Origin: a virus
Length of the DNA: 29,756 nucleotides
Strand: one strand, 5' to 3'
Virus record (IMG/VR): IMGVR_UViG_3300018424_000147
Location: 1-29,756 of that record
In this document: positions 2,791 to 25,700 of the stretch, piece by piece
How positions within the stretch are numbered: position 1 is the first letter of the stretch
Layout: each line of letters opens with the position of its first letter
Program-made: the position numbers and the translations under genes
The notes under the pieces: model-generated
Database searches by the model: none
Seen by the model: the letters and a program-made list of their open reading frames with translations, nothing else
Told to the model about the DNA's origin: nothing

Positions 2791-3680
2791 TTACACCTGA
2801 TCTGATAATTCATTTTTATTTTTCATCTTTTGTATTTTTTCTTTTATAAAATCTAAATGTAAATCTCTTTCAAATGGAATCATGTTTTCGACTTCAGTTG
2901 TTGAATAATTATGATACTGAGTTATATTAAAAGTCAGTTTGTAGTGCGAATACAAATCTATATAACTCAGTCCAACATAAAAAAATCGTTTAAATTCCTA
3001 AAAACTGTTTTCTTGTCTTTACCGTTACTATTAGTATAGTATACTGTATGCTCGATCTTCGGCAATTGTTGGAAGAATTTTGCAATTTTAGCATATGATT
3101 CTACAGGCAATGCTTCGAGAAATTCGTCTTTTGTTCTTTGATCTTCTAAATCCCAAGCATATGTTTCTTCTTCATCAAAAACATATTCGATGCAATGTTT
3201 TACTAACTCGTATGTAATATCGCTTAACGAAGACAGATTATTGATTCTCTCAGAAATTTTAGGAGTTGGATATTTCATTACCAAACCTGTTACATCATCC
3301 AACATCACAGTTTTAGATATTTCTCCATCTGGATATTTAATTTCTACTTCGTTTAGATCAACTTCTAAATCATACTCGATGCCATCATCGCTATCAACTA
3401 CTTTAAATTTGACAATATTACCAACTGAGACAGCCCGTATTTTAATAAACAAATATTCTAAATCAAATGTAGAACATTTATCGATATCGAAGTCTTCTGA
3501 CACAACACAATTATTAATTACTTGTTTGATTGCGTTGTAGACTTCGTTTGTTTCTCCTGTTTCTTTCGATACTAAAAGAATTTTTTCTTCTTTGACAAGA
3601 AAGGGACGATAAAACAGTTTCTCTCCGGTCGAAGGTAAAGAAATTTCAAAGGATGGAGTTTGAATTTTAGGTAGTGCCAT
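2791..3680 (-). CDS. Predicted -1 frameshift fusion: gp26-type protein with C-terminal extension (tail chaperone 'GT' form)
   Basis: The gp26-type frame stops at 2967-2969, but the -1 frame is open from just after a TAG upstream of the slip site down to a TAA at 2791-2793. A slip at the seven-T run (2979-2985) would add 62 residues after residue 234, giving a 296-residue product. The added segment begins YVGLSYIDLYSHYKL and later contains NMIPFERDLHLDFIKEKIQK. A Tyr/His-rich start followed by a 'MxPFER'-like helix resembles the T-domain style of tail chaperones. There is no ATG near the start of this extension; the only in-frame ATG (2881-2883) would give just 30 residues, so an independent gene is unlikely. 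In lambda and many phages the G and GT products chaperone the tape measure, whose gene begins 3 nt downstream here. This is prediction from layout and not demonstrated. Confidence 0.72.
2916..2971 (-). promoter_or_regulatory. Frameshift-stimulating stem-loop downstream of the slip site
   Basis: On the transcribed minus strand, 2971-2960 pairs perfectly with 2927-2916 (12 bp). Within the loop, a second 6-bp stem (2956-2951 with 2943-2938) closes a 7-nt loop. The stem starts 7 nt after the slippery heptamer, within the 5-9 nt typical of -1 frameshift stimulators. The zero-frame stop codon lies inside the 5' arm. Confidence 0.72.
2967..3680 (-). CDS. 26: gp26-type baseplate hub / tail assembly protein (zero-frame product)
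   Basis: A 237-residue protein resembling the T4 gp26 family (T4 gp26, about 208 residues, is needed for assembly of the central baseplate hub and is not clearly a virion component). The recognisable start is MALPKIQTPSFEISLPSTG, then a segment reading YRPFLVKEEKILL, and later an acidic middle with the 'F-x-L-E-Y-L-F-I-K-I-R' pattern. It is soluble, mixed alpha/beta, without membrane segments. The start at 3680 is preceded by AAAGG at a good distance. It sits between a tube-like protein and the probable tape measure. The seven-T slippery run (2979-2985) four codons before the stop allows a longer frameshifted form, listed separately. Family assignment is from recalled sequence patterns and position. 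Confidence 0.78.
   Translation of the reverse strand: MALPKIQTPSFEISLPSTGEKLFYRPFLVKEEKILLVSKETGETNEVYNAIKQVINNCVVSEDFDIDKCSTFDLEYLFIKIRAVSVGNIVKFKVVDSDDGIEYDLEVDLNEVEIKYPDGEISKTVMLDDVTGLVMKYPTPKISERINNLSSLSDITYELVKHCIEYVFDEEETYAWDLEDQRTKDEFLEALPVESYAKIAKFFQQLPKIEHTVYYTNSNGKDKKTVFRNLNDFFMLD
2979..2985 (-). promoter_or_regulatory. Slippery heptamer T-TTT-TTT for -1 ribosomal frameshifting
   Basis: Minus-strand sequence reads GAT TTT TTT ATG in the zero frame, so the heptamer T TTT TTT permits P- and A-site tRNA-Phe to re-pair one base back. It is the only heptamer of X-XXY-YYZ type I found in the short window where the -1 frame is open and the zero frame has not ended. Confidence 0.72.
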
Positions 3681-14652: not shown

Positions 14653-17558
14653 TGTCAATTGAAATAGAAAAAAATATTTCTAAATTCGTCAGTACGCAAC
14701 TGCCAGATTTTTATCGTGAAGAAGGGCCGCAGTTCATTGCTTTTGTAAAAGCATATTATGAATGGTTAGAAAGCAAACAATTTGAATATAAACCTCGCGA
14801 TGCAAAAGATAGCGATCCATGGACAGTCGTCGATAATCCATCAGCAACGTTACATCACAGCAGGAATTTAACAAATTATAGAGATATTGATAATACTCTC
14901 GACGAGTTTATTCTAGACTTTAAAAACAAATATCTGCCGAATATTCAATTTAATATTGCAACAAATAAGAAACTGTTTATTAAAAATGCTTTAGAATTTT
15001 ATAGAGCGAAGGGTACAGAACGAGCAGTTGATCTCTTTTTTAAATTAGTATATGGATTAGAAGCGCGAGTATACGAGCCAGCTCGCGATCTTTTTAAACT
15101 ATCTGATAATGAATGGGAAAATAAAAGATATTTAGAAATGGTACCTAGTCCTATTAATGTAGGATTTATAGGTAGACAAATTTATGGTGATACATCGAAA
15201 GCTACAGCTTTTGCTGAAAGATTAGTAAGAGTTAAAAAGGGATCTTTGTTTGTAGAAGTAATATACCTAAGCGCATTGAATGGTGTATTTCAGACAAACG
15301 AACAAATAAGAACTAGACCAGAAATAGGATCAGATATAGTATATCAAAACGAAGTGATTGGTTCTTTGACCTCTTTAGAAATTAATGCTACTGATCCAAA
15401 TTTTGTGGTAGGTGAAGAGGTTGTCGTCGAGGGCGGAAAAGGTAAAAAGGCCCGGGCAATCGTTACTAGTATAGAATCAGAGGTGGGTGTAGTAAGTTTT
15501 GATATTCTCGATCATGAATCAGGTTGGGGATATAGCGCGGATTCTCTTGTAATTGGTGCCGATAGAGAATTATTATTAGATGATATAACTGTTGAAAATA
15601 CAGATTATTTTTATCATGTTGATCCGTTTCAACGATTTAAATCTGTACATCAAGATTTATCATTAATTACTTTTGATCAAGATAATAGTAACGCGGCTGC
15701 ATATACTTTAGGCACAGACTTATTAGTCTATCATAATGGTAATACTGCATCAAATGTTGTTTTTAATTGTACTATTGTTGAAGTTAATACAAATCAAGAC
15801 TATATAATTGTAAACTATATAAAATCCAATTATGTAAATTCAAATAATGAAATACAATTAGATGATGGTAATTTATTTCATTCAAATGTAATTAGCTCTT
15901 TTTATACATCAGACGGCGCCGAGTTAGTTGTCGACACAACAGCAAACATTGTTGATGCATCTATATCAGGCAATGTTATTGCAACGAGCAATACTCTTAC
16001 ACTTGAATATACAACAACAGGACAACCACTGATAGGCGGAGATATTCTATATCAAAAAGAAGAAACAGCGGGTGTAAGATACGTACATGCCGTTGTAGCA
16101 AACACATTTGCAAATACTACTTCAGGTCAGCTGTACGCTAATGTTATCAGAGAAAAAGGTTTTTTTAGAACAAATAAACCATTTTATCGAAATCGTGTTG
16201 GTGAAAAAGATTTAGAATGCAATATTACGAAATTATCAAATGTACAAATTGGTATTATTAATAATGGAACCGAATTACAGGGCGGCATACCATTTAAAAA
16301 ATTAGCAAATACTTACACATCAAATACCGAATTAGGTTCGTATGCAAGTGGTTCGTCGAATAATAATAGCTTTTCTTTTACCAATAAGGCATCGTTCAAA
16401 GGACCTGAATCATCTCTTTCTGATACACAAGATTATTTCTATTATGAAACGACAACAAGAGAAGGTGGTCCGTTCTATATTAATCTATTAGATATCGCTT
16501 CAACTAATATAGGCGATATATTAAATTACGATACCGGTAATCCTAATTCTGTTTTTGAATGGATTGCATCTGGTAACCAAATACAATTATCTAATACGGT
16601 TTTATCTGATGCTTTAAATTATACTAATACAGCTATATCAGTAGGGTCATTAGAACAAATTGTAGTGACTAACCCGGGTGAAGGATACGGTATCGCTCCA
16701 TCTTATATTGTATTTGATCCACTTGCGTTCCATACTGAGAGATATGATTTCTATATTAAATACTATGATGAAGGTGCTGATAATATTAGAAAAGCTTTTA
16801 GACTGGGAGAGATAGTAAAATCTGCTGGCAAAGACAATGCATTCGGCAGAATTATGAGCTTTGATATTACTAAAAGAGAAATGAAGGTCACACGACTTTT
16901 TGCTTCTCAAGATGTAACTGCTAATTCAGATACTCAGTGGAGCGTAGATGAAGACTTTAGAATAGGTGATACACTTGAAGGACAAACATCGGGTGTCGCA
17001 GTGACTATTGAAGTAGTAGATGAATTAAGAATGCATCCAAGAGTAGGTTTAAATGCTGTGATTAATACCGAAACTCTATCAGGTGATGGTTTTGCAACTT
17101 CATTGAGAGTTATTGATTCGGGTATCGGATATTTTGGCCGGCAGCTCGATCCGGTCACAGATACTTACGTCAGAGGAGAACCTCTCGTTTTAAGATCTGT
17201 AACTGATTCTAATAAATCAATATCTGTGTATGGTTATTTAGGTCAAAATGGTATAGCGCCCGGTGTACATCCCAATAGAAAATCATTTTTGAGTTCGGAT
17301 AAATATCTTCATGACAATGATTTTTATCAAGAATATTCATATCAAGTTTTAACTTCTCTGCCATTTAGCAAATATAAGCAAACACTCATAGATGTATTGC
17401 ATTTGTCAGGAAGTAAACCATTTGGTGGTTTTGTCGGTACTTCAGAATCACCTGTCGGAATTGATGCAACTCAATCATCGACAACATGGAATATTAAACA
17501 ATATGGTTTATTTGTTAATGAAAATACTTTCTATACTAACACTACAGTTAGTACATAA
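14652..17558 (+). CDS. 7: gp7 baseplate wedge protein
   Basis: A 968-residue protein (T4 gp7 1032). gp7 forms with gp6 and gp25 the heterotrimeric wedge core and reaches outward to gp8, gp10 and other parts. The start (KFVSTQLPDFYREEGPQFIA, then FVKAYYEWLES) is the N-terminal signature seen in far-T4 gp7 proteins, followed by LEFYRAKGTERAVDLFFKLV near residues 113-132 and YEPARDLFKLSD. The remainder is a string of beta modules with Gly/Thr/Ser turns, including IGDTLEGQTSGVAVTIEVV near residue 770, a motif type shared with gp8 and the 929-residue protein. The C-terminus has SSDKYLHDNDFYQEYSYQV, typical of the family. Its start overlaps gp6 by one base. Confidence 0.85.
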   Translation: MSIEIEKNISKFVSTQLPDFYREEGPQFIAFVKAYYEWLESKQFEYKPRDAKDSDPWTVVDNPSATLHHSRNLTNYRDIDNTLDEFILDFKNKYLPNIQFNIATNKKLFIKNALEFYRAKGTERAVDLFFKLVYGLEARVYEPARDLFKLSDNEWENKRYLEMVPSPINVGFIGRQIYGDTSKATAFAERLVRVKKGSLFVEVIYLSALNGVFQTNEQIRTRPEIGSDIVYQNEVIGSLTSLEINATDPNFVVGEEVVVEGGKGKKARAIVTSIESEVGVVSFDILDHESGWGYSADSLVIGADRELLLDDITVENTDYFYHVDPFQRFKSVHQDLSLITFDQDNSNAAAYTLGTDLLVYHNGNTASNVVFNCTIVEVNTNQDYIIVNYIKSNYVNSNNEIQLDDGNLFHSNVISSFYTSDGAELVVDTTANIVDASISGNVIATSNTLTLEYTTTGQPLIGGDILYQKEETAGVRYVHAVVANTFANTTSGQLYANVIREKGFFRTNKPFYRNRVGEKDLECNITKLSNVQIGIINNGTELQGGIPFKKLANTYTSNTELGSYASGSSNNNSFSFTNKASFKGPESSLSDTQDYFYYETTTREGGPFYINLLDIASTNIGDILNYDTGNPNSVFEWIASGNQIQLSNTVLSDALNYTNTAISVGSLEQIVVTNPGEGYGIAPSYIVFDPLAFHTERYDFYIKYYDEGADNIRKAFRLGEIVKSAGKDNAFGRIMSFDITKREMKVTRLFASQDVTANSDTQWSVDEDFRIGDTLEGQTSGVAVTIEVVDELRMHPRVGLNAVINTETLSGDGFATSLRVIDSGIGYFGRQLDPVTDTYVRGEPLVLRSVTDSNKSISVYGYLGQNGIAPGVHPNRKSFLSSDKYLHDNDFYQEYSYQVLTSLPFSKYKQTLIDVLHLSGSKPFGGFVGTSESPVGIDATQSSTTWNIKQYGLFVNENTFYTNTTVST

Positions 17559-17561
17559 ATA
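17554..17561 (+). promoter_or_regulatory. Candidate late promoter (CATAAATA) ahead of gp8
   Basis: The same octamer as before gp25, again overlapping the stop codon of the preceding gene and 22 nt before the next ATG. AGAGAA follows as a ribosome-binding site at 17574-17579. It matches seven of eight bases of T4 TATAAATA. Confidence 0.45.
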
Positions 17562-17583
17562 ACTATTATTTTTAGAGAATAAA

Positions 17584-19752
17584 ATGGCAAAGACACTTGT
17601 ACCAGCTGAATTTAAAACACATATTATAGATCAGCTAATAGAATCAATCACAGAAAGAGCTAACACATCTTACTATGCTTTTGTGGGAGATCATGAATCT
17701 GTTGCCTCGACACTCGAAGAAGTAAATCCTCCTCTCGAAACAATAAAAAAATTAAATTCAGATGTTTTCCGAAATATGATTTTTGGAAAACGTTTATCTA
17801 ATACCGATATTAAATTCGTAGTGAATAGAAACGATTGGGTTGAAGGTACTACATACGAAATGTATGATGATGAAACTATAGAACTTCAAGATAAAAACTT
17901 TTATATTGCAGTCGATGAAGATTCATACAAACATGTATATAAGTGTCTTTATAATGCAAATAATTCTCCCAGCACTATCAAACCTCTTTTTGAAGATGCA
18001 AAATATGATGCAAATCTATATGTACCCGGTGATGACTATTATGAAACATCTGATGGTTATCAATGGAAATACATGTATTCTATTACATCTACAGAATTTA
18101 CTAAATTTGCTACTGAAAAATTTATGCCAGTTACAGCGAATACTGCTGTACAAGATAATGCTATCGAAGGCTCAATTGATGTAATTAAAGTGATTACACA
18201 CGGTAAAAATTATCAAAATCATTTGAGTGGTAAATTTGAAGTAGCGGATTTGAATAGAATTTCAGCATCGATAGCAGCCATTTATAATTTAACAAATGCA
18301 AATCGATGTTATCGTTTAGAAGTTGGTGCTGATCAAACTGAAAATTTCTATAAAAATACTATGATGTATTTGACAAGCGGTGTAGGTTCAGGTCAATATC
18401 GCAAGGTTATAAGATCAATAGAAATACCAGATATTGGTGGTGTTTTTGTAGAATTAGAAGATAACTTTTTGACCATACCGGATGAAACAACAACTTATGA
18501 ACTTTCGCCCGCAGTTGAGATTATAGGAGATGGTACGCAGACTACAAATGCAGTAGCGCGCGCTATTATTAACGCAACAGCCTCTGATAGCGTACACAAA
18601 ATAGAAATGTTAGATGTCGGAGCGAATTATTCTTATAGTACAGCAAGAGTTTTGACGGGTAGTCCAAGACAAGTAAATGGTTTGTCTGTTGTTGTAACTC
18701 CAGCAGAAATCAGACCAATCGCATCACCTCAAGGTGGTCATGGTGCAAATACTGTAGTTGAATTCGGAGCTAAAAGAATTTCATTTAGTACTCGATTTAA
18801 TCGAGGGGAATCTGGATTAGTTGAACCTGTAAATACTTTCGGACAATTTGGAATTATCAGAAATCCACAATTTGCGAACGTTGCAATTTATACCGAAAAT
18901 GTTTCAGGAGGTTTCATTGAAGGAGAAACTATTTGCCAATTTACTAAATTGCAATTAGGTGATCAAGCATCATGGATGGCTAATAGCGTTGTCGGTAATT
19001 TTATGTTAGATCAATCTGGTTTATCCAGTAACGAATACGGTAGACATTTTAAATCGGGCGATTATGTGTACATAGTGACCAATGATGGAGTTAATCCTAC
19101 TCATCTATTAACAACGGTAGGTAATGCATCTAATTCTACTGCTATTCATTTATCTGAAGCGACCAATTTTACTGACGGTACATTATGCACTGTATATTAT
19201 GTTCATAAACAAGCTGAAGCCACTGTTCGTAATGTGAACCCGCCATTTCCATTAACAAATACTCCTGCTACAGGCATGTTAGTTGATGATTGTACTCCAG
19301 AATTTAGAAAAGGGAGTACAATATATGGGTTACAATCTAAAAATATAGCAACCATTAAAGGAATTGATATAAATAATAGGATTAATGATGGCAATGCTGA
19401 TTTTATTTTTAATAATTTTAGGCAAACTATAAAAATAATCGGCTCTGCTATTTCTAATGGTCCATTTGAAGAAGATGAAACAGTGACTCAAGGATCTGCT
19501 ACAGCACAAGTTCATTCTATCCAAGGAAATAACATTTATCTTACTAATATTGTAGGAGACTTTAGTACAATTGGAGACATAGTTGGTTCAAGTAGCGGTG
19601 CTATTATGTCTGGTATTGTCGGTAATGAGCTAGATATTGTGTATGGAGATCTAGATCCAAACTCAGGTAGTGTGATTTATATACAAAATGATATTCCTGT
19701 CGATAGAGAAGAAAATCAAACAGAAGAAATTCGTGTAATATTGGAGTTTTAA
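17584..19752 (+). CDS. 8: gp8 baseplate wedge protein, enlarged
   Basis: A 722-residue protein, about twice T4 gp8 (334). gp8 is a dimeric wedge subunit bridging gp7 and gp10. The N-terminus shows the family layout: AYYAF-type strand (NTSYYAFVGDHESV), then RLSNTDIKFVVNRNDWVEGT, Y-V-P-G-D-D-Y-Y-E-T, and DGYQWKYMYSI near residue 157 (T4: 'GDGYVWEYLFEI'). The last residues NDIPVDREENQTEEIRVILE correspond closely to T4's 'NRPPIIMAMDQTEEINILF' end. Between them, roughly residues 200-700, lies an inserted series of beta modules, including GSATAQVHSIQGNNIYLTNI and IGDIVGSSSGAIMSGIVGN. This makes the assignment secure at both ends with a large internal expansion. The next gene starts 3 nt downstream. 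Confidence 0.9.
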   Translation: MAKTLVPAEFKTHIIDQLIESITERANTSYYAFVGDHESVASTLEEVNPPLETIKKLNSDVFRNMIFGKRLSNTDIKFVVNRNDWVEGTTYEMYDDETIELQDKNFYIAVDEDSYKHVYKCLYNANNSPSTIKPLFEDAKYDANLYVPGDDYYETSDGYQWKYMYSITSTEFTKFATEKFMPVTANTAVQDNAIEGSIDVIKVITHGKNYQNHLSGKFEVADLNRISASIAAIYNLTNANRCYRLEVGADQTENFYKNTMMYLTSGVGSGQYRKVIRSIEIPDIGGVFVELEDNFLTIPDETTTYELSPAVEIIGDGTQTTNAVARAIINATASDSVHKIEMLDVGANYSYSTARVLTGSPRQVNGLSVVVTPAEIRPIASPQGGHGANTVVEFGAKRISFSTRFNRGESGLVEPVNTFGQFGIIRNPQFANVAIYTENVSGGFIEGETICQFTKLQLGDQASWMANSVVGNFMLDQSGLSSNEYGRHFKSGDYVYIVTNDGVNPTHLLTTVGNASNSTAIHLSEATNFTDGTLCTVYYVHKQAEATVRNVNPPFPLTNTPATGMLVDDCTPEFRKGSTIYGLQSKNIATIKGIDINNRINDGNADFIFNNFRQTIKIIGSAISNGPFEEDETVTQGSATAQVHSIQGNNIYLTNIVGDFSTIGDIVGSSSGAIMSGIVGNELDIVYGDLDPNSGSVIYIQNDIPVDREENQTEEIRVILEF

Positions 19753-19755
19753 GTA

Positions 19756-22700
19756 ATGCCCCTAAATACAAACTTACTCTCATCTCCGTATTTTGATGAT
19801 TTCGATAGATCAAAAGATTACTATCGTATATTATTCAAACCTGCAACTGCAGTTCAAGTACGAGAAGTAAATCAATTACAATCTATTTTGCAAGATCAAG
19901 TCGAGCAATTCGGTGATCATATTTTAAAATCAGGTACGATTCTCGAAGGTTGTGACTTTGAATTTAAAAATGCTTTTCCTTATGTCAAGATTCTAGATAC
20001 TACGCAATCAGGGGCTGCAGTAGATTTGGCTGACATCAATGGATTATTTGTAAAAGAAAACGTTACAAATAAAATCGCGCGCGTAGAACACGTAGAAAAC
20101 GGTTTTGAAAATGATCCAAATGGTAATCTAAAAACACTGTATCTCGATTATAATGATGATGCAGATGTAACACAAGTTGTTGATGCATTTACGCAAGGCA
20201 ATATTCTCAGAGTATTTGCAAAAGATAATAGACTATTCGATCTGACTGTATCTTCAGGTGGTACAGTACAAGCGTTTTCAAACAGTGATGTTGTCGTTAT
20301 TCTACCAGCAATTGAAGTAGAAACAGTCACCGATTCTGATAATAATTGGCCTGTACCATTTGTTCAAGGAGAATCTCTCGAAAATTCTTCTGGTACGATC
20401 GAAGTATTATTGACTAATGATTCTGATTTTTATTCAAATACAGAAAATTTGACTTCTATTCTAAGAATTAAGCCAAATCCGACTAAACAATCAGGTAGCG
20501 GACTAGATGTAAAATCTTGGGAAGATTTAGCAGTCGGTACAATTTTAACATCTTCATCCAGTAATAATGAATTGAGAATTGTAAAATTCTTAGGTCAAGG
20601 AGCAACTGGTAAAGTTGTAACGACAAGCGCAGGTCAAGTATCAGATTTAGAATTGACTAGAGGTGGTTTTGGTTATAGTGTATTGCCTCATGTCAGTGTA
20701 TATTCTCTCGGTGCTACTCCTACACAAATTCAAAACCTTGTTATTTCACCACAAGATTTTTATCAAGAAGTTACAATTGCTGGCACAGCAGATTTTATTG
20801 ATCCAGTTGGTTATGGTTATGGCGCTTCAGTATCATCAGGTAAAATTTATCAGAAAGGTTTATTTTTGAATGTTGGTCCACAATTTAAAATGGTTACCAA
20901 ATATTCTAATACTCCTTCAGATCTCTCTATAGGTTTTAATAGCGTTGAATCAGTTGTCAATGTATTTACTGATGCATCATTATATGATAATGCCGGCGGT
21001 TTCCTCAACTCAGGCGCTCCGGGTGCAGATCGTTTAAAGCTTACTCCAACTCTCGTAGTTAAAAATCAAACAGAAGAATTAGCTTCTTCTGATTATTTTC
21101 CTCTTGTAAGATTCGCAGAAGGTCAACCATACTCACAAAATAAGCAAACACAATACAATAAAATCGGTGATATGATTGCTCAGAGAGCGTTTGAGGAATC
21201 TGGTAACTATGTTTTAGACGAATTTAATGGTACTACACAGTCTACTTTAGATTTTACAGATTCGGCCACGAATTTTAAATATGTTCTCGATCCTGGACAT
21301 GCATATATTCAGGGTTATAGAGTTAAGACAGAGACTAACTTCGCCAAATCTGTACCTAAATCAACAGAATTTGAGACAGTAACGGGTACTGGAATTGATT
21401 TAGATTATGCAAACTATATTGTTGTCAATGAAGTAGGCGGCGGACATATTTTTACTGAAACACAACTAGTAAATTTAAAAGATACTGCAGCTAATTTTAT
21501 TAGCGAAAATATCGGTGGAGACCCGGCATTATTAGGTGGTACTACTATTGGTACAGCTCGTATAAGAAATGTTATATATGAATCTGGTATTCAAGGTACT
21601 GCTGATGCGAAATATCGTGTATATCTGTACGATATTAACATGAATACAGGCAAAAGATTTGATAGTGTAAGAGCATTATATAGCCCAAATAATGGTGGTA
21701 CAACAATTGATGGTATTGCTGATGTAGTTCTTGAGAATGGTAATGAATTTGTATTGCGCAGTATAAAAACAGTAGCGAGTGCTGATAATTATAGAGCAGC
21801 GGTTTATACTAAAAATGCAGAAATTATAGGTGCTGCGCGCAATGCGATGATTTTTAACATTAATGCTCCTATCAAATCGTTTTCTACCTATTCGTACATA
21901 TATCGACAATCTACCACGTCAGTATCAGTCGCGACAAATGGTCAATTAAGTGTATCAGCAGATTCAGGAAATGTCATATTCCCATACATTGCTTCTCTTA
22001 GTGATGTAGAAGAAAATGATCTGATCATTATACCAGAAAATGATATTGTAGTGTCATCAGCAGATTTTACTGGAATTTCAGTAACAAGTAAAGAATCTGT
22101 AAACCTCGGTTTTGGTGTCAATGCTTATGAAATAACAGTCGGCGCAAGTCCGGTTACTACATTTGCAGCTACTTATGAAGTGGGTGATTGGATCCGCGAT
22201 GCTAGCAATAACGCAGCTCAAATTTTGAGCATTGGCGGTCAAAATAAAATGACCATTAGAACATATAATAGTGCTTTTGCTGTCGGTACTCATTCGTTTA
22301 CTCGATTTTTCCCGAAAGACGTACCTATACCTCTAGACAAAAGATCTAATATGTCAGCTAGCGTAGATAGCAATCAACTTAATTTGACCGTAGATCTTGG
22401 TTACAATGTAAATTCTGGTTCATCTGTTACAATTACATATGACCAAAAAGTTACAGACACTAAATCTAATCTAACGGTTAATCGCGGTTCACTCGTACGC
22501 GTGACATCTGCTGGTACTTGGCCAAAATGTTTAGGTTTCTCTGGTATTTTTAGATTAAGAGCCGTATACAATGGCACAACAAAATCGGCAACTAATATCA
22601 CTGATGAATTTTATATTGATCATAATCAAAATTCCAATTATTATGGTTTGGGTTATTTGTATAAAGATGAAAAAGTAGAAAATCCTACTGCATTAGCAAC

Positions 22701-25700
22701 AGAAATTTTGATTGAGTTCGATCATATATCAGAAGCTACACACGGCTTAAAAATCATTGATTCTTACAGTATAAATGATGTAACGCCATTGGCTAATTTA
22801 ACTAGTTCGATGCATACATTAGAAATACCAGAAATGAATGGTCAAAATGGCAAATATTATGATCTGAGAGAATGTGCTGATTTTAGAATATTTGCTTCTA
22901 ATACTGCAAATTTAACTACGAGTGATACAGATCCAAATTTAACATGCAATCCATCAGAAACTGTTTCATTCCCTACAGGTGTTAATTTTAAATTTCCAAA
23001 ACCTCAAAGTGATTTCACATTTGACTACGATGTTTATCAATCACGTAGAGATGAAATTGCTATCAAAGCAGATGGAGCTTTTGATATTACTGTAGGCGCT
23101 TCAGAAACAAGAAAGAAAGATGACATACAAAAACTCGTCATTTATACTTGCGATGTTGCGCCCTATCCTTCTATTCCAGAAAATATTTCTTCACAATTAA
23201 AAGAAATCATTAATAAGAGAATTATTAATATTAGTGCTGGTAGTAATAGGATTGGTCGTTATAGTAATTTAATGACACGAGTCGATAAACAGACGTCTGG
23301 TTATACTATGCAAGAAATTTCTGCCCTCGAAAGGAGAATTGCTGCATTAGAATATAATCAAAATATTTCGGCTTTAGAAAATTCTACTCGAAATAGAACA
23401 ATTCAAAGTTCTGTAGATTCTACTCTCGAAAGATATAAATTCGGTTTCTTTGTTGATAATTTTGAAAATTATAATATGTCAAATATTACTGATCCAAATT
23501 ATCAAGCATCGATTTACGAATATTTGTTGCAACCTAATAAAAATGAATTGACATTAGAATTTGATGTTGCTAAGAGATCTAAAAAATATGTAACTGGTAA
23601 ATCGGTTAGATTCCCTTGGACCCGCAGAAAGCTAGTATCACAAGATTATGCTACATATGCAGCAGTGCCAGTTATTCCGGAAATTGTCATAACTCAATTT
23701 TGCAATTTTGTAACGAATAATAATAACAAATATATTGGGTCAAATGCTACGGCTACATCAATTTATGATAGCGTTTGGGAAGAATTTACATTTGTAGGAT
23801 ATAGTAAACTACCTGAAGATGGATTAACGAGACAAATAAAAATTGATTTCTTCAATCCCGACGGTGGCATTGCATACGAAGTAATTCAGTCAAATACACC
23901 GCCTACTAATAATAGTCAAGAAACTGGTACCGTAGTATGGGCTCCTACGCAAGTTACTACAACTATACCATCTTCTGAAAAACAAGAATTGTATAGAAGA
24001 GCCTATGCTGTTAAAAATGGCGAGAATAAAGTTTATAATAGAGTTAATCCATGGTTAGAAGATGGATTAGTTGGTTCATTTACAGTTGGTGGAACAGCAT
24101 ACAGCTCGCGAGCTGGAGCTGGCCAAATTAAATTTGATTATGATCATACAAAAGGAAAGTATATTACTGTTAGAGTTCATAAATCAAAACCAGTATTTAA
24201 TATGCAAGTGTGTTATTATGCTGAAACGCAAGCGGACGATATCTACGATCAAGGTTCTACTAGCCAAAATTATGAACCACCTTGCCCCCGCGGAGAATTT
24301 TTATATAGCAAGTGCGAAGGAACTACGAAGATTGCAATAGTTTGTGATGGTAATCGTGGAGAAATGGTGGGAACTAGAACACCAAACTCTCCTGATTGTG
24401 GCTTTACAACAGATACTGGTCCATCTGGCGGCGGACCTGACACAACTCCGCCAGATAATACCACTGTATGTCCTGCAGCTGGCACGGTTACACGTCCGGA
24501 TGGTCAATGTAGTGGAACTACAAAAAGAATTTGGGTATACACTGGTGAGAGCATAGAAAGCTTAGGCGGTTATGGTAATGCTTCTAGTCCAAGCAATCAA
24601 TTTATAGGCGAATGTCAAGTAGAAATTAAATCTACCGAAGTTAATTCAACAGATTGCGGTTACGTTCCTACTACTGTTACTCCTGAAATAGTCTTTAATA
24701 ATTTATTAAGTAATTTTGTTACTCCTTATTGTCCTGGTGAAAATACTGATAATGGTGGACATACTGACTGCGGAGGCGGTGGTGATACTAACGTATGTGT
24801 AACAACTACTACACCTGAGCCTGAACCCGAAAAAGTATCAATCAGTATATTTGACACAACAGCAAGAGAAAATAGCACTGCATATTTGAAAGTTCGTCTT
24901 GATAGACCGATGGATCGCGACCTTAATATAAACTTTAAGACAACCGATGGAACTGCCACTGAAGCAAATCAAGATTATATTCCGAGAGCAGGCACATTAA
25001 AAATACCAAAAGGCAGTGTCGAAGAACAAATTTACGTACGCGCGCGACAAGATTTGGTTTCTGAAGGCGATGAGACTATGCATGTAGATTTGCTTGATGT
25101 TGATTACGAGTATGCATCATTTGAAGTTTCGCGCGGCACATTAACAATTACTAATGTCACTGTGCCTGTTGTTTCAATTAGTGATTCGCGTGCTAATGAA
25201 AGATCGGGAAGTATGTCTTTTACTGTCACGTTATCTGAAGAATCTAATATAGCGTGTTCTGTTGATTATGCAACTGCAACTGCAACTACACGTAATCCAA
25301 GATGGTTTGATTCAGCTACTGCTGGTCAAGATTACACCGCGACTAGTGGCACATTGACTTTTGCAGCGGGCGAAACTGAGAAAATAATTACAGTTCCTAT
25401 TTTGACTGATACTGTAAATGAAAAAAATGAATTATTTAATGTAGTTTTATCAAATGCTGCAGATTGTCATATTGCTGGCGGCGGTGGTGGTACAGCTAGA
25501 GGTATTATTTTTAATACAGCATTTGTTGCTCCTCCTCCAATTATTACAATAAATGATGATGTTAGAGATATTAAAATTATTGATACTTGGACGACTATCC
25601 CATCATTCCCGGGAAATAAGGCTATCGTAATTGGCAATCCTCATACAGCTGGATCAGGTGGTTCTGCGAATGATTTTATTAGTCAAAATATTACTGTTGG

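Follow-up and report, generated by a model that had tools for sequence, protein, structure and literature searches.

Most annotated relatives of the T4-type virus studied here have a small separate gene, called gp51 or hypothetical protein, after gp26, and the question is whether such a gene exists at all. The stretch analysed (the window; 29,756 nt of a T4-related phage, IMG/VR record IMGVR_UViG_3300018424_000147) carries on its minus strand a gp26-type gene, followed by a short region that is open in the -1 frame and then by a 711-aa ORF. The sequence-only reading had proposed that the gp26-type gene and the -1 frame are joined by programmed ribosomal frameshifting. It is predicted, with high confidence, that a short and a long tail assembly chaperone are produced in this way from one gene.

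The gp26-type locus and its signals

The order of genes on the minus strand was found to be gp4 (head closure), gp2 (DNA end protector), a tail tube-like protein, gp26, the -1 extension and the 711-aa ORF. The same block, made up of gp4, gp2, the tail tube-like gene, gp26, the gp51 frame and a large ORF, occurs with small variations in phiM12, HTVC008M, Vibrio phage D484 and Aeromonas phage CC2. The gp26-type gene (2967–3680) encodes a protein of 237 aa, the short form or TAC-N, which matches PF12322 (T4_baseplate, 2e-52) and phrog_150 (7e-58). Its AlphaFold model (pLDDT 89) retrieved gp26 and hub assembly chaperone proteins from a viral structure library. A fold search of the PDB and a profile search of PDB sequences, both with the short form, returned nothing significant, and no structural link to lambda gpG was therefore found. 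No solved structure of a tail chaperone with this fold was retrieved, and the putative chaperone role is therefore drawn from gene order and from the literature, where the hub assembly chaperones of T4 already include gp26 and gp51 (PMC3004832).

In the zero frame the gp26-type ORF ends with AAC GAT TTT TTT ATG TTG GAC TGA, which contains the slippery heptamer T_TTT_TTT (2979–2985). A 7-nt spacer (2972–2978) separates the heptamer from the 5' arm (2960–2971) of a stem, which pairs perfectly over 12 bp with the 3' arm (2916–2927). The loop of this stem holds an inner 6-bp hairpin (2938–2956; 2956–2951 with 2943–2938), identified by folding, the detail of which is not conserved. The stop codon of gp26 (TGA, 2969–2967) sits inside the 5' arm. 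The -1 frame is open after a TAG (3000–2998) until a TAA (2793–2791), leaving a gap of two bases to the ATG (2788) of the 711-aa ORF. The extension (2791–2979) would supply residues 235–296 and the TAA of a predicted fusion of 234 + 62 = 296 aa. When the sequence was re-read, the coordinates given earlier for the heptamer, spacer, both stems, -1 frame and 296-aa fusion all proved correct.

By itself the heptamer is unremarkable, as dozens of in-frame slippery heptamers occur in this A+T-rich window; what makes it significant is where it lies, the stem that follows and its conservation. A second in-frame heptamer, T_TTA_AAC (2988–2994), lies 9 nt upstream of T_TTT_TTT. This strong slippery sequence, absent from the sequence-only reading, opens into the same -1 frame. 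It was rejected as the main slip site, since it is not kept by the relatives and lies 16 nt from the stem.

According to the proposed mechanism, most ribosomes would terminate at the TGA of the gp26-type gene and yield the 237-aa short form. A minority would move back by one base with two tRNA-Phe on T_TTT_TTT, a slip that the 12-bp stem 7 nt downstream would aid, and would continue in the -1 frame to give a 296-aa long form with a gp51-type C-terminal domain (TAC-C). If lambda gpG/gpGT is taken as a guide, the N-terminal part may coat the tape-measure protein and the extra C-terminal domain may recruit tail-tube subunits. We infer both the slippage and its rate; a low level of the long form would be expected from the lambda case.

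The Ala/Lys-rich 711-aa ORF (653–2788) is presumed to be the tape-measure protein on account of its position and size. The sequence-only reading had named it as such, and position and size do fit; a sequence match, however, was not obtained. Profile searches gave no significant family match for the ORF and none for its homologues in close relatives, and BLASTP against T4 gp29 and the HTVC008M tape measure revealed no similarity. The large ORF downstream of the chaperone locus does match tape-measure families in HTVC008M, Cr30, S-PM2 and D484. The cyanomyovirus S-CREM2, which has a 418-nm tail, possesses two consecutive ORFs of 1,565 and 1,456 aa (14937–24008) after the chaperone locus, both of which are called endolysin; in a comparison of ORF length with tail length, either or both of these candidates could be the tape measure.

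Conservation of the slip site, the -1 frame and the RNA structure

Eighty relatives were taken from viral contigs, and each of the 78 whose 3' end is intact has an in-register T_TTT_TTY near the gp26 stop. A non-redundant set was then formed from these relatives and named isolates by removing near-duplicates at 85% identity, which left 79, and 77 of these have the in-register T_TTT_TTY at the end of gp26. Of 79 Phe-Phe pairs at other places in these genes, only 2 have T_TTT_TT, a contrast which is internal to the genes themselves. The first Phe codon of the heptamer is invariably TTT (TTT accounts for 66% of Phe codons), and the codon before it invariably ends in T. The probability of this arising from synonymous choice is ~10^-27.6 if rows are assumed to be independent, a figure that is overstated since relatives were treated as independent.

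Two relatives, on the Ackermannviridae side, lack the canonical heptamer and have an open -1 frame. Among Ackermannviridae and their relatives (L092, L094 and L098–L103) an open and conserved -1 extension is present and the heptamer is replaced by N_NTT_TTY, as in ATT TTC ATT TAA, GTT TTT CGC TAA and CTT TTT CAA TAA at the end of gp26. This suggests frameshifting at a non-canonical site. The extension of the enterobacterial members reads ..SYFVMCDELK.HGYSIFEI.ESMPWHLDLLTE.., and in GEC_vB_N6 and Menlow the first start codon of the -1 frame appears only at +32. Phage nACB2, assigned to the Ackermannviridae by its record, has kept the canonical T_TTT_TTT, and its -1 extension is entirely unannotated.

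Past the gp26 stop the -1 frame has no stop codon in 3,478 codons from 74 complete extensions (54–67 aa in length), compared with 330 and 370 stops (9.5 and 10.6%, respectively) when the remaining two frames are read. Divergence at the three codon positions is 0.44/0.27/0.60, as expected of a protein-coding frame, and the median dN/dS is 0.32, indicating selection at the protein level. The extensions share the consensus FYxGLSHxxLxNYYxxxFxLxQHHKYSxTEIENMIPFERDIYVxML. The -1 peptide of the window matches phrog_634 ("baseplate hub assembly catalyst", gp51) at 3.7e-15, a family matched by 28 of 28 extension members. It also matches the extreme C-terminus of phrog_150 (231–279 of 282; 0.0017), a match that alone points to the existence of fused forms.

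Within the 29.8 kb of the window, the stem is the sole perfect inverted repeat of 12 bp whose loop is no longer than 60 nt, where 0.15 would be expected. The RNA downstream of the slip site has a z of -3.1, with none of 200 shuffles folding as well. For the relatives, the 72 nt after the slip sites have a mean z of -2.64 (n = 74), compared with -0.32 in controls (n = 222; three stretches per gene; p 1.7e-21). For the 38 sequences of the window's group, pairing in the stem columns is 75% at zero slide and 25–37% after sliding; eight pairs have changed on both sides, and the covariation score was reached by none of 500 shuffles. The cyanophage-type group has a different, compact hairpin near the slip site (columns 13–23 with 33–43), with a covariation score above all 500 shuffles; RNAalifold predicted no consensus structure for this group. 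Part of the covariation may be due to protein constraint, as the stems overlap coding sequence. Retention of the heptamer, a stop-free -1 frame and covarying stem bases had all been put forward by the sequence-only reading as means of checking the frameshift, and each was thus observed among the relatives.

Start codons and rival explanations

The -1 frame might instead be an independent small gene, gp51, whose own start ribosomes would use through re-initiation or through coupling to the end of gp26. The majority of GenBank entries show it in this way, and most annotated relatives have a separate ORF labelled "gp51 / baseplate hub assembly catalyst" or "hypothetical protein", in many cases a small gp51 whose start codon lies at the gp26 stop or shortly beyond it, with overlapping TGATG or TAATG stop-start junctions in Cr30, phiM12, D484 and AG3. 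However, the -1 frame contains no ATG, GTG or TTG up to +20 after the gp26 stop in 35 of the 74 complete cases, and none occurs before +60 in nine. A start accompanied by a Shine-Dalgarno-like motif was found up to +20 in only five of the 74; the sequence-only reading had held that such starts in most relatives would refute frameshifting. In 16 of the 74 a -1 stop ends at -16, directly abutting the heptamer. An independent gene would also leave unexplained the invariant in-register heptamer and the structured RNA just after it, and this explanation is considered very unlikely. For the window itself, the claim that the frame has no usable start holds in substance, but a TTG does exist at 2955 (54-aa ORF), without a Shine-Dalgarno sequence and within the stem-loop region. 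Extra internal initiation may occur in some of the species with overlapping junctions.

Frameshifting on the ribosome is hence the preferred reading, and it is backed by the heptamer in 77 of 79 relatives, the absence of stops from the -1 frame, the compensatory changes in the stem and the rarity of starts. The change of frame could also be carried by the mRNA if RNA polymerase stuttered on the T run. Homopolymers can slip, and the run in the window consists of seven T; but in 33 of the 77 relatives the heptamer is only T6 followed by C, which is short for polymerase slippage. Transcriptional slippage would, moreover, require neither the strict T_TTT_TTY register nor a compensating stem at the spacing of ribosomal frameshifting, and is regarded as even less probable than a separate gene. 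A single ORF split by an error of sequencing or assembly, homopolymer indels being a common error, is refuted by the same arrangement in all relatives examined, including the independently sequenced isolates S-PM2, HTVC008M, Cr30, phiM12 and S-CAM1.

It had also been expected that standard annotation would leave the stretch blank. This applies to S-PRM1, S-CAM1, DSL-LC03, CC2 and Menlow, but not to most relatives, in which a separate gene is annotated.

Comparison with T4, lambda and other phages

T4 gp51 (249 aa) is homologous to T4 gp26, with PF12322 covering residues 1–201 (4e-52), phrog_150 its full length and phrog_634 its C-terminus. The profile of the -1 domain aligns with residues 208–244 of T4 gp51 (hhalign E 1.5e-4, probability 51%). 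T4 gp51 therefore consists of a gp26-like domain and the C-terminal domain that the window holds in the -1 frame, and it follows from this make-up that T4 has as separate genes what the window would obtain by frameshift. In T4 and CC31, gp26 and gp51 are separate genes on opposite strands, without a frameshift, whereas the window has one gene and a predicted shift. Among the part of the fragment's ORFs that was scanned, the -1 frame after gp26 is the only place of the gp51-type domain, which has no N-terminal domain attached to it there, and the T4 arrangement, with the long form as a separate full-length gene, was not found.

The sequence-only reading had likened the locus to lambda G/GT, and the comparison is apt: as with lambda gpG/gpGT, a short chaperone gene has a slippery site near its 3' end and an open, coding -1 extension, directly upstream of the presumed tape-measure gene. 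The window differs in having T_TTT_TTT and a long-range stem, and no relation to lambda gpG in sequence or solved fold was detected. A chaperone gene, an open -1 frame and then the tape measure, with a poly-T slip motif, are also described for Vandenendeviridae and Andersonviridae, with phage Adele as the example (PMC12846349); the motif of the Adele type is GTTTTT, compared with T_TTT_TTY here.

The abstract of a study dedicated to T4-like phages reportedly states that frameshifting is conserved in several of their groups and that T4 uses separate genes. The gene pair concerned is said to be gp26/gp51, which fits the domain matches of T4 gp51 found here. Conservation of the tail-assembly-chaperone frameshift in long-tailed dsDNA phages has been reported (Xu, Hendrix and Duda, 2004) and reviewed (PMC5009743); in that 2016 review, which sets out the lambda G/GT scheme, T4 was still the exception. 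The tail assembly chaperones of T4-like phages have since been identified (Vladimirov, Gautam and Davidson, 2022, Virology 566:9–15), as reflected in the papers that cite this work: it is cited by one (PMC12846349) for poly-T slippery signals of the TAC-N genes of T4-like phages, and by PRFect for some T4-like phages that carry a short and a fused long gene rather than frameshifting. The sequence-only reading was not aware of routine annotation of the frameshift for T4-type gp26 genes; judging from these citing papers, it is not new for such genes. As such frameshifts were already reported there, the locus is known biology of the lambda type, a further well-supported example from an uncultivated virus with no new mechanism. 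What the present tests add is the evidence from the window, the extent and register of conservation, the RNA covariation and the count of start codons.

Both strategies are found within one family, the Straboviridae. Aeromonas phage CC2 (Emmerichvirinae) has the frameshift arrangement, with T_TTT_TTC and no gp51 annotated there, and T4 and CC31 have separate genes. Phage Aeh1 was reported to be without gp51 (PMC3037559), and the arrangement of CC2 fits this. A tentative scenario, towards which we remain slightly more doubtful than convinced, is that the frameshift-made pair is ancestral across Kyanoviridae-like phages, Ackermannviridae and several Straboviridae. One slip site would then have two alternative RNA stimulators, a long-range stem of 9–12 bp in the window's group and the compact hairpin in the cyanophage type; the Ackermannviridae would have moved to the weaker N_NTT_TTY, and the T4 lineage would have lost frameshifting through gene duplication.

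A remark made in 2010 (PMC3037559) was that the first 200 residues of T4 gp51 are missing from cyanophage gp51, which reaches only ~20% of the T4 length. The short "gp51" of marine T4-like phages is explained if it is usually the last part of a frameshift product and not a separate gene. With regard to tail biology, these phages would be grouped with lambda rather than T4. Database matches to the -1 frame with E no higher than 1 numbered 580 records. The frame is present in hundreds of records of cyanophages, pelagiphages and vibriophages, many of which show a separate gene or a blank, and their annotation could be corrected in bulk.
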